Below are positions 30,180 through 34,478 of a stretch of DNA of 64,000 nt, one piece after another (within the stretch, counting starts at the first letter, position 1; each line of letters begins with the position of its first letter). Location of the stretch: positions 310,001-374,000 of the forward strand of contig NZ_SRHZ01000024.1 of the NCBI RefSeq assembly GCF_004684085.1, read 5' to 3'. Below the pieces are notes generated by a model, which was given only the letters and a program-made list of their open reading frames with translations, did not search any database and was not told the origin of the DNA. Position numbers and translations under genes: made by a program. This stretch comes from Stenotrophomonas maltophilia. Its GTDB lineage: Bacteria > Pseudomonadota > Gammaproteobacteria > Xanthomonadales > Xanthomonadaceae.

Positions 30180-30229
30180 GCGCGCGGCCGGGTACAGCGC
30201 GCTTGAGTGGTACTTCGTGCATGGGCCGA

Positions 30230-32428
30230 TCACAGCGGAAGCTCCCATTGCAGGCGAAGACTTGGCACGGAACGCCGGGTGTTGCGAAGTACCTGTGATC
30301 CGCCTTCGTCGAAACGCCACTGGCCGGTCTCGATGTCCTGCGCCAGCAGGTTCGAGGCGGTCAAGCGCAGCTTGCCGTGCCGCTCGGTTGCGTACTGTGC
30401 CCAGGCCTCCAGCTCGCGTCGATAGGCCGTGATGTCCAGCTCGCTCAGGCTGTAGCGTATTCTGCCTCCACTGCGGTGGGTGTACGCCAGGCCGCTGCTC
30501 CAGCGCGATGAAATGCGGTAATCGAGCGATGCGCTGGCGGTGAATGGCACTTGGTCTTCAATCCGATTGTCAGGCCCGGGAACATCCCTGACCCGGGAGT
30601 GGTTCCAGGTGGCGTTGCCGCGCAGCTCGATATCCGGCCCTCCACGGTACAGGCGTGCCAGCGGCATCCTGCCATCCATCTCGATTCCCCAGGCCATGGC
30701 GCGGGTACCGTTGACCGGCGTTGATACCCAGCGCCCGTCACGTAGCACCGTTTCATTGCGGATCGGTGCGTCGATGCGGCGCAGGTAGCCGCCGATGCTT
30801 CCTTGCGTTCCTTCACTGCCGTGCATTTCCCAGGCCGCATCCAGACCCCACGCCAGTTCCGGACGCAGCGATGGATTGCCGATCTCGTCGGGGTTCAGGG
30901 GGCGGTTGTTGGTAGAGGTGTACGGACGTGGGACCAGCGAGCGCAGTGCTGGTGCGCGGAAGCTGCGGCTCAATGAGACCCGTAGCTGGTCCTTGCCCTT
31001 TGCACGCTTCCACAGGCCCTGCAGGACCGGCGTGAACACGCTGGCACGGTGACGCGTCGTGGCAAAATTCCGACCTTCGCTGCGGGTCTGCAGTTGTTCC
31101 CAGCGGCCACCGACGTAGAAGGCACTGCGCGCGCCCCAGGGAAACTCATCCTGCGCGTACAGCGCCATGCGATGCAGCCGCGCATCGAAGAAGAGGTCGC
31201 TGACCGTTGACGGTTCGCTGGGAGAAGAATGCACTTGCTGCACTCGGGATTCACGCCGCGAGTCCATGCTGCTTTCGGCACCGACCTGCAGTGTATGGCG
31301 GCCCCACGCCGGCAGGGTCCACTTCACGCGGGTGGTGCCGCCCAGCACGTGCAGCTTCGCATCGGTGCGATCGAAAAGATTATCCTGCTGTGCCTCATCC
31401 TGTCCTTGTTCGCGAAAGCGGTAGTCCTCCCGGTTTCCGTCCATTGCCAGGCGCAGGTTCAGGCTGCCTCCATCCGACAGTTTTTTCTCCCACTCTGCGC
31501 TGACCTGGCCCTGGTCAAGACGCAGGTGCGTGCGCTGCCGGTAATGGGGAGTGCGTAGCGGCGGACCCCGCAGTGTGTCCCAATCAATGGACATGTCGCG
31601 ACGGAAGTCGGACGCGTCCAGCAGGGCCTGCAGCGAAAGGGTGGTGTCATCGCTGGTTCTGAACGTCAGTGAGGGCGAGAGCGAAACGCTGTCGCGTTGG
31701 CCGGTGGCACGCAGGCGCGATTGTCGATGCAGCAACGGCGCACCAACACCGTCCCAAGCGTCTTCTCTGCTGCGTTCCTCCACCAGGAATGCGCGGGCGG
31801 TTGCCGTGGCGGTCAGTGAAACATCACGATCAAGGTTGGAGCGGGCCTGACGCCAGCTTGCTGATGGGGTCATGCGCCCTTGGGTATCCGTCCAGGAAAC
31901 CGTCAGTCGTTGACTGTCTTTTGCAACCGGTGCACGGGTGACGATGTTGAGTGTGCCGGCGATGGCACCCATGCCCTGATCAGCGGAGGGCGCGCGCAGG
32001 ATTTCGACGCGCTCGATCAGATCGGTGGCCAGTGAGTCCAGGCTGAAACCGGCGGGTGTGCGTTGGCCGTTCAACAGGATCTGCGTGTAGCCCGCGCCCA
32101 GGCCGCGTAGTGACACGGTGCCCGGGCGGCCTGGTGCGCCGCTGGAAACGCTGACGCCTGGTAGGCGCTTGAGTGCCTCCAGCAGGTCGGTATCGCCGTG
32201 TCGCTGCAACGTATCGTGGTCCACAACAATGCGGCTGGCGGTGTCGTCACGGCGGGCATCGTAGCGTCCGGCCTGGACCTGCACTGTGTCCAGGTCGGTC
32301 GTGATCGGAGGCGCCGGTGTCGTTGGCGGAGCCGCCGCTGCGGTCGTTGATCCCGTCAGACAGCCGATGGTGAGCCATACCCTGGCGCGCGAACGCACCG
32401 TTGTCGAGGAGGACGAAGATCGTTGCAT
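30230..32428 (-). CDS. TonB-dependent outer-membrane receptor
   Basis: The 732-residue protein has a signal peptide (ending near TTAAAAPP). It has a TonB-box-like DLDTVQVQAG, a plug domain (LLEALKRLPGVSVSSG, TQILLNGQRTP, IERVEILRAPSADQGMG) and a C-terminal beta-barrel that ends in an aromatic-free LRLQWELPL. The ligand is unknown. It lies 109 bases downstream of the M56-M23 gene on the same strand, separated by a GC hairpin (32461-32489), so it may be in the same regulon or transcript. Families like this import ferric siderophores, haem or sugars. Confidence 0.9.
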   Translation of the reverse strand: MQRSSSSSTTVRSRARVWLTIGCLTGSTTAAAAPPTTPAPPITTDLDTVQVQAGRYDARRDDTASRIVVDHDTLQRHGDTDLLEALKRLPGVSVSSGAPGRPGTVSLRGLGAGYTQILLNGQRTPAGFSLDSLATDLIERVEILRAPSADQGMGAIAGTLNIVTRAPVAKDSQRLTVSWTDTQGRMTPSASWRQARSNLDRDVSLTATATARAFLVEERSREDAWDGVGAPLLHRQSRLRATGQRDSVSLSPSLTFRTSDDTTLSLQALLDASDFRRDMSIDWDTLRGPPLRTPHYRQRTHLRLDQGQVSAEWEKKLSDGGSLNLRLAMDGNREDYRFREQGQDEAQQDNLFDRTDAKLHVLGGTTRVKWTLPAWGRHTLQVGAESSMDSRRESRVQQVHSSPSEPSTVSDLFFDARLHRMALYAQDEFPWGARSAFYVGGRWEQLQTRSEGRNFATTRHRASVFTPVLQGLWKRAKGKDQLRVSLSRSFRAPALRSLVPRPYTSTNNRPLNPDEIGNPSLRPELAWGLDAAWEMHGSEGTQGSIGGYLRRIDAPIRNETVLRDGRWVSTPVNGTRAMAWGIEMDGRMPLARLYRGGPDIELRGNATWNHSRVRDVPGPDNRIEDQVPFTASASLDYRISSRWSSGLAYTHRSGGRIRYSLSELDITAYRRELEAWAQYATERHGKLRLTASNLLAQDIETGQWRFDEGGSQVLRNTRRSVPSLRLQWELPL

Positions 32429-32460
32429 TGGTGTGCAGTTCCTTTGTCATGGCGTGATAG

Positions 32461-32489
32461 CCGGCCGCAGCAGGTCCTCCCGCGGCCGG
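32461..32489 (-). terminator. GC hairpin between the M56-M23 gene and the TonB receptor
   Basis: CCGGCCGC (32461-32468) pairs with GCGGCCGG (32482-32489) around a 13-base loop. No T-run is visible; it could attenuate rather than end transcription. Confidence 0.4.
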
Positions 32490-32537
32490 GAATCGAAACG
32501 ATGCGTAGAGGTGAGCGGCGGCGCGCCGGTCAGCGCA

Positions 32538-34007
32538 TTACTGCAGCCAGTGCTGCGGGTCCACTCGTGTTCCGTTGCGCAGCAGTTCCATGTGCAGGTG
32601 TGGGCCGGTGGTGCGCCCGGTGTTGCCGCTGCGGGCGATGGGATCGCCCCTGCGCACCTGCTGGCCTGGCTGTACTGCGAAGTCCTGCAGGTGTGCAAAC
32701 AGCGACTGCCAGCCACCGCCGTGATCAATCACGACAACCGTGCCGTAGTTCGCACCATCGGGATAGGCGTGCGTGGCGGCGATCACGGTGCCGTCGGCGG
32801 GGGCGAGCACGGCGGTGCCACGGCGCGCGGCGAAGTCGGTACCGTGATGGGCGCTCTGGCGGAAGTCGGCGACGTGCCCGAACACGCTGGTGACCCGCGC
32901 ATTGGACAGTGGCATGAAGAATGACGGAGGTGGCAGCGTGGCTTCCACCAGTGTTACCGACGCGGTGGGGAGTGGCAGCGTCGCGGGCGTCGGTGCTGCC
33001 ACCACGGTTGCCTGTACGGTGGCCACGCCGACTGTGCAGGCAGAGCCCAGTGCGAGCAGCAGCAGGATGCTGGTAATGCCTGGGCGGCGACCGTCATCAC
33101 CCTTCAGCATGTGCTGCAGGCGCACCTGGTGGCCGCCGAGGTCGCGATGGGTGAGGGCGCTGGCCGGTTGCACTGCCGTCGCGTAGCGAAGTGTCTGGAC
33201 ATAGGCGTGGGCCAGCAGACGGCCGTCGTTGGCGGCGCCACCCTCGGCCAGTGCTCGCGCATCGCATTGCAGTTCGGCGGCCAGTTGCATGCGCGCGGCA
33301 ATGCGTCGAACGAAGGGATTGAACCAGTACAGCGCACCAACAAACCGCATCAGCGCAGCGCGCTGGGGGTCGCGGCGCAGCAGGTGGGCTGCCTCGTGGC
33401 CGATGACCAGGCGAAGCGTACGATCCGGCAGGGCCAGGCATGCCGTGGGCAGGATGATCTGCGGCTGCGGCCTGCACAGGGCGAACGGCGTGCCGCTGCC
33501 TTCTACAATGCGCAACGCGACGCCTTCCTGCTGCAGCCCCTGCACAGCGTGGCGCGATTGCGGGCCAGGCAACTGCGCAGTCTGCAGCGGGTGGCTGCGG
33601 CGTAGCAGGGCTCGCAGACGGCGGCTGGCCAACGCCCAACGAACGAGAGCCAGCATGACCCCTGCGATATAGACAGTCAGCAGCAGGGGCGTCAGCCAGG
33701 CCATCAATGGCTCGGTCGCCGCGAGTGCAGGCAGTTGTTGCACAGGCCGCAGTACGCCGGTACCGCTGTCCAGCGCAACAGGCAATGCGCTGGCCAGTTC
33801 ATGCAACGGTGCCGCCTGCACCGGCAGCAACAGCGCAAGCAAGGGGGGCAGCACAGCACACAACCACGCCCCCAGCCAGAAGCGTGCCGACGCATGTGAA
33901 AGGCTGAGCAGCCGCTGCAGCAATTGCGCGCCGTACCAGACCAGACCAGCCCCCAGCAGACTCGCAGCGAGGCTGATCATCCACGGCGCGGTTGATGACA
34001 GGCTCAT
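32538..34007 (-). CDS. Fusion of BlaR1-type M56 metallopeptidase and LytM/M23 peptidase
   Basis: The 489-residue protein begins with membrane helices (about 10-30, 42-62, 102-124). A cytosolic M56 domain follows with zinc motif HEAAH (204-208) and downstream acidic residues in AELQCDA (E245, D249). A further helix comes at 312-335. The periplasmic C-terminal domain has M23 motifs: HHGTDFAA (H387/D391) and HLHME (H470, H472). Classical BlaR1 carries a penicillin-binding sensor at this place; here a peptidoglycan endopeptidase-like domain substitutes for it. The gene overlaps blaI by four bases (ATGA). A likely role is to sense or cut peptidoglycan outside and inactivate the BlaI-type repressor inside. 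Confidence 0.92.
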   Translation of the reverse strand: MSLSSTAPWMISLAASLLGAGLVWYGAQLLQRLLSLSHASARFWLGAWLCAVLPPLLALLLPVQAAPLHELASALPVALDSGTGVLRPVQQLPALAATEPLMAWLTPLLLTVYIAGVMLALVRWALASRRLRALLRRSHPLQTAQLPGPQSRHAVQGLQQEGVALRIVEGSGTPFALCRPQPQIILPTACLALPDRTLRLVIGHEAAHLLRRDPQRAALMRFVGALYWFNPFVRRIAARMQLAAELQCDARALAEGGAANDGRLLAHAYVQTLRYATAVQPASALTHRDLGGHQVRLQHMLKGDDGRRPGITSILLLLALGSACTVGVATVQATVVAAPTPATLPLPTASVTLVEATLPPPSFFMPLSNARVTSVFGHVADFRQSAHHGTDFAARRGTAVLAPADGTVIAATHAYPDGANYGTVVVIDHGGGWQSLFAHLQDFAVQPGQQVRRGDPIARSGNTGRTTGPHLHMELLRNGTRVDPQHWLQ

Positions 34008-34387
34008 GGCTGGTCCTCGTCATCCTGGAGCAGCAGCGCCTGCAGTTGCTCGATTTCCTTGTCGCTCAGCAGGCGGCTTTCGGCGAATGCCTGGGTCGGC
34101 AGCGGCCCGTCGATCTCCAGCACGCGACGGGCGAAGTCGGCACTGAGTGCGGCCAGTGTGGCTACCTTGCCGACCTTGGCACTGTAGACATTCAGGCCAT
34201 GCTGGCTGCCCTCTTTCACCAGCCCCTTGTCGACCATCCGTTCCAGCGTCTTGCGCGTGGACGAGTACGACCAGTCCAGTGCGGCAGCTGCCGCATTGTG
34301 CAGTTCACGCGCGCTGCAGGCGCCGTCGCGCCACAGGCACTTCAACAACTCCAGTTCGGCGTTCGAAGGTGTTGGGACGCGGGGCAT
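34004..34387 (-). CDS. BlaI/MecI/CopY-family repressor
   Basis: The 127-residue product starts MPRVPTPSNAELELLKCLWRDGACSARELHNA. It has the winged-helix DNA-binding domain with DWSYSSTRKTLERMVDKGLV and a C-terminal dimerisation helix pair. Members are cleaved or inactivated by the M56 partner when cell-wall stress is sensed. Translation is coupled to the M56-M23 gene. ATG 34387 is preferred over an upstream frame start at 34444, because an 18-bp palindrome lies between them. Confidence 0.93.
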   Translation of the reverse strand: MPRVPTPSNAELELLKCLWRDGACSARELHNAAAAALDWSYSSTRKTLERMVDKGLVKEGSQHGLNVYSAKVGKVATLAALSADFARRVLEIDGPLPTQAFAESRLLSDKEIEQLQALLLQDDEDQP

Positions 34388-34421
34388 GGTCAGACCTGGG
34401 CGTGTGATTGATGTCGTGAGT

Positions 34422-34439
34422 GTGCGACAGATGTCGCAC
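34422..34439 (-). promoter_or_regulatory. Candidate BlaI operator
   Basis: GTGCGACA-GA-TGTCGCAC is a perfect 8-bp inverted repeat, about 35 bases upstream of the blaI start. The centre GACA-nn-TGTC resembles the TACAnnTGTA core of known BlaI/MecI sites. Autoregulation is likely. Confidence 0.7.
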
Positions 34440-34478
34440 GTCATGCAAGAGGGACATCAAGGCGCGGAGGTGCTGAGG

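Follow-up and report, generated by a model that had tools for sequence, protein, structure and literature searches.

The window, a 64,000-nucleotide stretch of a Stenotrophomonas maltophilia genome of 4.63 Mb, contains a unit in which a repressor gene, a gene for a fused M56-M23 sensor and a TonB-dependent receptor (TBDR) gene follow one another on one strand behind one palindrome. The repressor and sensor genes overlap by 4 bp, and a gap of 109 bp separates the sensor gene from the TBDR gene. Neither the TBDR gene nor the palindrome figured in the preliminary description of this locus. The features, in window coordinates, are as follows.

34443 to 34448, minus strand: TTGCAT, a putative -35-like element immediately ahead of the operator, its spacing constant in the alignment
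34422 to 34439, no strand: candidate operator, a perfect palindrome, GTGCGACA-GA-TGTCGCAC, 34 nt ahead of the repressor start codon
34412 to 34416, minus strand: third half-site, CGACA, at fixed spacing, with GACA kept in 26/26 upstream regions
34004 to 34387, minus strand: BlaI/MecI-family repressor gene, 127 aa (Pfam Penicillinase_R, MecI alignment, 26-row alignment)
32538 to 34007, minus strand: M56-M23 membrane protein gene, open across 489 aa (Pfam, alignment of 26 loci, hydropathy, AF2 model)
30230 to 32428, minus strand: TBDR gene, 732 aa, the presumed output (Pfam, AF2 model, relatives)

Two peptidase domains were recognised by Pfam in the sensor: Peptidase_M56 at residues 41-255 (E 3e-22, 79.6 bits against a cut-off of 31) and Peptidase_M23 at residues 386-484 (E 4.2e-32, 110.7 bits against 28.7). 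The HEAAH motif spans H204-H208, HHGTD holds H387 and D391, and HLHME holds H470 and H472. Among named relatives, the whole protein is closest (85-97% identity) to those of three strains of S. maltophilia and of one uncultured Stenotrophomonas. For comparison, 26 loci were examined, the window and 25 further ones, spread over six genera of one family, which we take to be the Lysobacteraceae of NCBI, the family of Stenotrophomonas also called Xanthomonadaceae. The zinc and catalytic residues checked in both domains are invariant in all 26 loci, and in each the sensor gene lies next to a BlaI-family repressor gene with the same 4-bp overlap (in the window, a Penicillinase_R reading frame upstream). 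The preliminary description, which had one membrane protein with intact M56 and M23 domains coupled to a BlaI repressor and proposed counting this architecture in other genomes, is upheld. Because both domains, the repressor and the overlap are kept in every locus, window included, the fusion is not a product of chance or of a misread frame.

The N-terminal part of the sensor resembles that of BlaR1. Hydropathy marks four hydrophobic stretches, at residues 9-27, 41-69, 99-128 and 308-338; by analogy, the M56 domain between the third and fourth would be cytoplasmic, and the M23 (LytM) domain at about 360-489 would be periplasmic. An AF2 model of the sensor (pLDDT 77.9, pTM 0.57) aligns over residues 9-291 with the BlaR1 cryo-EM chain 8ext_A (Z 16.3, rmsd 4.0 Å, 241 residues aligned), and a profile built on the N-terminal parts of 15 of these 26 proteins found Staphylococcus aureus BlaR1 (1.9e-10), the HEXXH and ExxxD motifs falling in register. 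The corresponding residues of the M56 site (H204, E205, H208, D213, E245 and D249; HEXXH...ExxxD) are invariant in 26/26 proteins. For BlaR1 itself, the available part of PMC9834060 gives H201EXXH, E242XXXD and an N-out/C-out topology. The predicted layout is therefore that of BlaR1 and MecR1, with four helices, the protease inside and the C-terminal domain outside, the sidedness being taken by analogy. The profile alignment ends at Y269, which lies opposite residue 265 of the BlaR1 chain, one helical turn off Tyr261; it stops before R296, which was considered as the counterpart of BlaR1 Arg294. Alanine occupies position 284 in 25 of the 26 proteins and leucine or phenylalanine position 285 in all of them, and from position and residue type our guess is that the M56 domain might cut its own chain at A284-L285.

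The repressor scores well within its family, with Penicillinase_R at E 3.9e-19 (69.5 bits against a gathering cut-off of 22.6), and falls short of the strict BlaI models of NCBIfam (BlaI_of_BCL 35.3 bits against 180, MecI_of_mecA 21.7 against 250). Its gap-free alignment with MecI places Ala100-Phe101 opposite residues 101-102. BlaR1 cuts BlaI directly, at Asn101/Phe102, according to the part of PMC9834060 available, and the residues at the counterpart of this BlaI/MecI cut site (Q99, A100 and F101) are invariant in 26/26 repressors. An alternative, longer start lies at 34444; the ATG at 34387 is preferred since a start at 34444 would cross the palindrome. The starts of the 25 relatives were picked near that of the window, so their agreement is not independent evidence. 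With the cryo-EM match, the invariant M56 active site, the adjacent BlaI gene and the invariant cut-site phenylalanine, the layout of the BlaR1/BlaI type proposed earlier is borne out, and BlaR1-like signalling is well supported by inference.

Upstream of the repressor, the palindrome is conserved. The sequence TGCGACANNTGTCGCA is exact in 25 of the 26 upstream regions, with locus L120 one base off, and GACA-NN-TGTC is present in all 26; TTGC-like letters precede it at constant spacing in the same regions. A promoter scan reported no consensus promoter at the palindrome, the TTGCAT element included. BlaI, MecI and CopY sites take the form TACANNTGTA, with the core ACANNTGT, that is, ACA-NN-TGT; the ten bases of TACANNTGTA alone do not predict repressor binding, as stated in the portion of PMC7253601 available. 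The window palindrome shares the ACA-NN-TGT core and is a candidate binding site.

The operator is also rare. In its own genome the exact operator occurs at a single site, and the 16-base form of the palindrome is unique. Across 91 Stenotrophomonas genomes, it occurs once in each of the 19 with a full-length fusion and in 2 of the 72 without; a reversed-pattern control was present in 1/91. One of these two genomes, G257, carries the operator, a repressor (78% identity) and a sensor-like start at a contig end, and probably holds a unit truncated there; the M23 part of its sensor-like protein is not visible because the contig ends. In the other, G234 (L194:4958-4973), a lone exact operator-like palindrome lies within or beside unrelated reading frames, with no repressor in the 3 kb searched. 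When up to 2 mismatches were allowed, the own genome held 19 operator sites, whereas the reversed control gave 27, and there is thus no sign of a wider regulon. A wide BlaI regulon was rejected at the stringency used, given one exact operator per full-length-fusion genome and no excess at 2 mismatches. Our reading of these sequence counts is that the repressor would control only its own operon. Since the unit, its operator and the TBDR are conserved, and the operator occurs once per genome, the pattern argues for a self-contained circuit with the TBDR as its sole visible output.

We propose that such a circuit would work as follows. A BlaI dimer would sit on the palindrome near the promoter and hold the whole unit low. 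The sensor would lie in the inner membrane like BlaR1, both termini outside, with its M56 site in the cytoplasm and its M23 domain in the periplasm, touching the wall. A change in the occupancy of the M23 cleft, by cross-linked stem peptides or by their absence or cleavage, would move the helices and free the M56 site, which would then cut BlaI at Ala100-Phe101. Sensor and TBDR would rise, and uptake of the TBDR ligand would be tied to the wall signal. Signalling by repressor proteolysis is, judged from the sequences, likely. Peptidoglycan sensing, guessed from the kind of domain, is plausible, and the unit may be a sensor of cell-wall state; that peptidoglycan is the signal and the TBDR the output, both together, has about an even chance of being right. 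As a whole, a BlaR1-like, one-target circuit whose outside part is a peptidoglycan-hydrolase domain is in our view about as likely to be true as false.

The outside domain is the part that sets this sensor apart, and here too the preliminary description, which placed a LytM peptidase where a beta-lactam sensor would be, agrees with the evidence: Pfam places M23 at the C-terminus and detects no penicillin-binding (class D-like), transpeptidase or beta-lactamase domain there. Over residues 358-489 the model resembles LytM domains, with Z reaching 21.3 (4bh5_A, rmsd 1.8, 126 aligned). NCBIfam equivalogs score far under their cut-offs for the sensor (MepM, for example, 90 against 341). H387, D391, H439, H470 and H472 are invariant in 26/26 proteins. 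From work on LytM, we take these to be the zinc ligands (HxxxD and the second His of HxH) and the catalytic histidines. A degenerate, EnvC-like activator is ruled out for the 26-protein set by the invariance of the five zinc and catalytic residues, and their conservation suggests a domain that is likely zinc-loaded and probably active.

Such conservation exceeds what a mere binding domain would need, and it speaks for another reading in which M23 is the working end. The protein would then be a membrane-tethered wall endopeptidase, opening the wall locally for TonB and the receptor to function, for instance, and M56 would only tune its amount via BlaI and self-cutting. This reading also fits an output protein that lies in the outer membrane and depends on TonB. 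However, the outside part of BlaR1 is a sensor (PMC9834060, in the part available), and a dedicated repressor and operator in 26/26 loci suggest that a signal is received; we consider an effector role for the M23 domain unlikely. The sensing circuit remains our preferred reading of the M23 domain.

The third gene of the window encodes a TBDR with both a plug (Pfam Plug, 8.2e-21) and a beta-barrel (TonB_dep_Rec_b-barrel, 2.1e-28). Its AF2 model (pLDDT 77.1, pTM 0.75) was aligned by Foldseek with PhuR, FecA, OprC and Cir. A related TBDR (46-96% identity to that of the window) follows the sensor in 23 of the 26 loci, at a spacing of 22-117 bp in 22 relatives. No terminator-like match was found between the sensor and TBDR genes of the window, and from this and the spacing we assume that the two would be co-transcribed; the TBDR gene may also have its own promoter. 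Within the gap, at 32456-32494, lies a GC-rich 19-nt inverted repeat (79% complementary) that could affect read-through.

The prevalence of the TBDR is one ground for a reading in which the unit senses a metal or nutrient. Since the M56 and M23 domains both depend on zinc, the signal would here be the loss of zinc from the exposed M23 domain, or else the docking of the ligand of the TBDR, and the TBDR would import that metal or its chelator. By sequence the receptor matches colicin I and catecholate siderophore receptors, and its fold matches, among the best 50 of 842, are receptors for heme, ferric citrate, copper, siderophores, PQQ, cobalamin and colicin I; these lie at 13-18% identity, however, and do not fix the ligand. 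The own genome also has a BlaI-M56 pair whose M56 protein bears a TonB C-terminal domain, and one member of this repressor family, CopY, is copper-responsive (PMC7253601, in the portion available). Against this reading stand three distant loci in which the third gene encodes a wall-type enzyme, and we regard metal or nutrient sensing as improbable.

These three loci favour a wall signal for the preferred circuit. In L233 (3721-6338) and L234 (3685-6372), both from the order of the Aquimarina genome, genes for BlaI, an M56-M23 fusion and an M23-LysM protein stand in a row, with about 30-75 bp from sensor to third gene. One enzyme domain is thus common to sensor and presumed output in these two loci. 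In G848 (L229:5287-8080), which belongs to the same class as Stenotrophomonas and to another family, BlaI, M56-M23 and a polysaccharide deacetylase (PF01522) are encoded in a row on one strand. Set against a reading of peptidoglycan is the fact that the third gene within the family of Stenotrophomonas is usually a TBDR (23/26). A circuit with TBDR output has its own exceptions, 3/26 loci without a related TBDR and two of them without a recognisable third gene. At L116 (6342-10668) a PF00756 esterase and an M1 peptidase take the place of the TBDR; a related 445-aa protein is encoded after the TBDR of L119. In L121 and L122, from one genus, no third gene was recognised among reading frames of 200 aa or more; the next same-strand frames have no Pfam match and resemble shadow frames. 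Genes beyond the unit vary between species groups. The Aquimarina genome has a convergent TBDR beyond the sensor, and the Bacteroidota loci L039 and L235 show no same-strand wall enzyme beside the fusion. The partner of the fusion is often an envelope protein, and this is the main, if indirect, ground for a wall signal.

The M56-M23 fusion is a sporadic, accessory feature. In the family, 9 of 198 genomes gave matches across both domains; within the genus the count was 19 of 91 genomes (one per species), leaving 72 without a full-length match. A survey of the order found 6 of 299, all six within the family. In a class-wide set of 369, the matches listed showed both domains together in G848 alone, apart from two members of the family, in a survey that scored at most four candidates per genome, so that fusions may be missed. 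The order of the Aquimarina genome contributed 4 of 246, Aquimarina included. No plasmid record covered 80% of the query. In the window, the unit (30180-34478) sits between two genes that we take, from their sequences, to encode a methionine aminopeptidase and a LysE-type exporter. This site was compared in eight Stenotrophomonas genomes, six without the fusion and two (G205 and G256) that carry it elsewhere. In the fusion-free G098 and G163, the matches to the flanking genes end 38 bases apart; in G071, G179 and G256 they lie 852-890 bases apart, with the unit absent between them; in the remaining 3/8 the exporter fell outside the stretch retrieved. The genes of the unit thus seem to come and go together.

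This patchiness also bears on a beta-lactam response, in which M23 would report wall damage by beta-lactams as part of the drug response of Stenotrophomonas: the BlaI and M56 families, the S. maltophilia background and the release of BlaI/MecI from DNA by a peptidoglycan dipeptide in Bacillus licheniformis (PMC3305447, in the part available) speak for it, but the unit has no beta-lactamase or PBP gene, its exact operator has no second copy in the genome and 72/91 Stenotrophomonas genomes have no full-length match, which makes it very unlikely.

The fusion itself probably arose two times or more. The tree, of 31 M56 domains, comprised 16 of the 26 proteins, G848, four Bacteroidota fusions and 10 other M56 proteins. 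The fused proteins of the family of Stenotrophomonas form one group with G848 (branch 95/77, not starred), and the Bacteroidota fusions share a starred group with four M56 proteins from Aquimarina. No M23 domain was found at E 0.001 in the 8 comparison proteins from other genomes, of which L228 is incomplete at the end of its stretch, and none in the two other M56 proteins of the own genome. The placement of the Bacteroidota fusions with M23-less Bacteroidota M56 proteins thus suggests at least two origins. A single origin was rejected by an AU test that forced all fusions together (p-AU 8.6e-5), in a data set where several rows have long branches or odd composition. L235 (4224-6020, Bacteroidota) may represent yet another origin. 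Its M56-M23 protein has an extra, coiled-coil-like C-terminal tail and, by eye, reads YSQL where other fused proteins show YAHL or similar; one catalytic histidine may be lost, and loss of M23 catalytic residues could thus happen in Bacteroidota.

Other M56 proteins occur in these genomes. The own genome encodes a second BlaI-M56 pair (L124:3774-5331, contig 68), with a TonB C-terminal domain at the end of its M56 protein, and a third M56 protein of 658 aa (L123:4774-6750, contig 12), whose long proline-rich and coiled-coil-like C-terminal part has no Pfam match. Two M56 proteins of Aquimarina have C-terminal parts with weak matches, one to a TBDR plug (L225:883-2418; 21.2 bits against a cut-off of 23.9) and one to TonB_C (L226:964-2379; 22.8 against 24.6). 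The L124 protein is another case of a non-penicillin outside part on this chassis, and those of L225 and L226 would be further outside parts tied to TonB transport.

Taken at its broadest, the preferred reading would describe a hitherto undescribed class of wall-surveillance circuits, in which an endopeptidase domain recruited independently at least twice onto a BlaR1-type protease reads Gram-negative peptidoglycan via repressor proteolysis, while the output gene is swapped between lineages (outer-membrane receptor, wall hydrolase or polysaccharide deacetylase). We offer this generalisation tentatively, and judge it somewhat less probable than its negation. An accessory BlaR1-type version with a wall hydrolase as its outside domain would, if true, show that the chassis is modular. 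It would also provide a genetically simple system for the reading of peptidoglycan in Gram-negative bacteria, with one repressor, one operator and a visible output. A further question is why Stenotrophomonas, which includes drug-tolerant opportunists, should place an outer-membrane receptor under this kind of control.

Staphylococci detect penicillin with a BlaR1-type switch, and most of what is known about proteases of this type concerns penicillin sensing in Gram-positive bacteria. The window unit shares with BlaR1-BlaI and MecR1-MecI a BlaI-family repressor, an M56 domain with HEXXH and ExxxD, the predicted four-helix layout, a C-terminal outside domain, the ACANNTGT operator core and the phenylalanine at the repressor cut site. 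It differs in that its sensor has M23 and lacks the penicillin-binding domain (NCBIfam blaR1_generic, 32 bits against a cut-off of 400), and in that its output is a TBDR instead of a beta-lactamase or PBP2a, with no second exact operator in the genome. The staphylococcal and bacillar systems form a divergon, whereas the window unit has three genes in one direction. By anatomy the sensor would work like BlaR1; strictly speaking it is no BlaR1, since the unit has neither a penicillin sensor nor a beta-lactamase output. The BlaI and M56-TonB_C pair of the own genome has the same repressor and protease families, a Gram-negative host and a link to TonB-dependent transport, but its outside part is a TonB C-terminus and its M56 domain falls outside the M56-M23 group, on a long branch. 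ShyA, MepM, Pgp3 and LytM share the M23 fold (Z up to 21.3) and the five zinc and catalytic residues, whereas the M23 domain of the window forms one protein with a signalling protease like BlaR1. The pairing of M23 with M56 in one protein is named in a review of M23 enzymes, among combinations under 1% of hits, which in the part available gives no operon, operator or relatives (PMC9662197); in the accessible portion of the open-licence PMC literature, neither the unit nor its operator or receptor was found described. The domain pairing is thus already in print, and what may be new is the conserved unit with its operator and TBDR.
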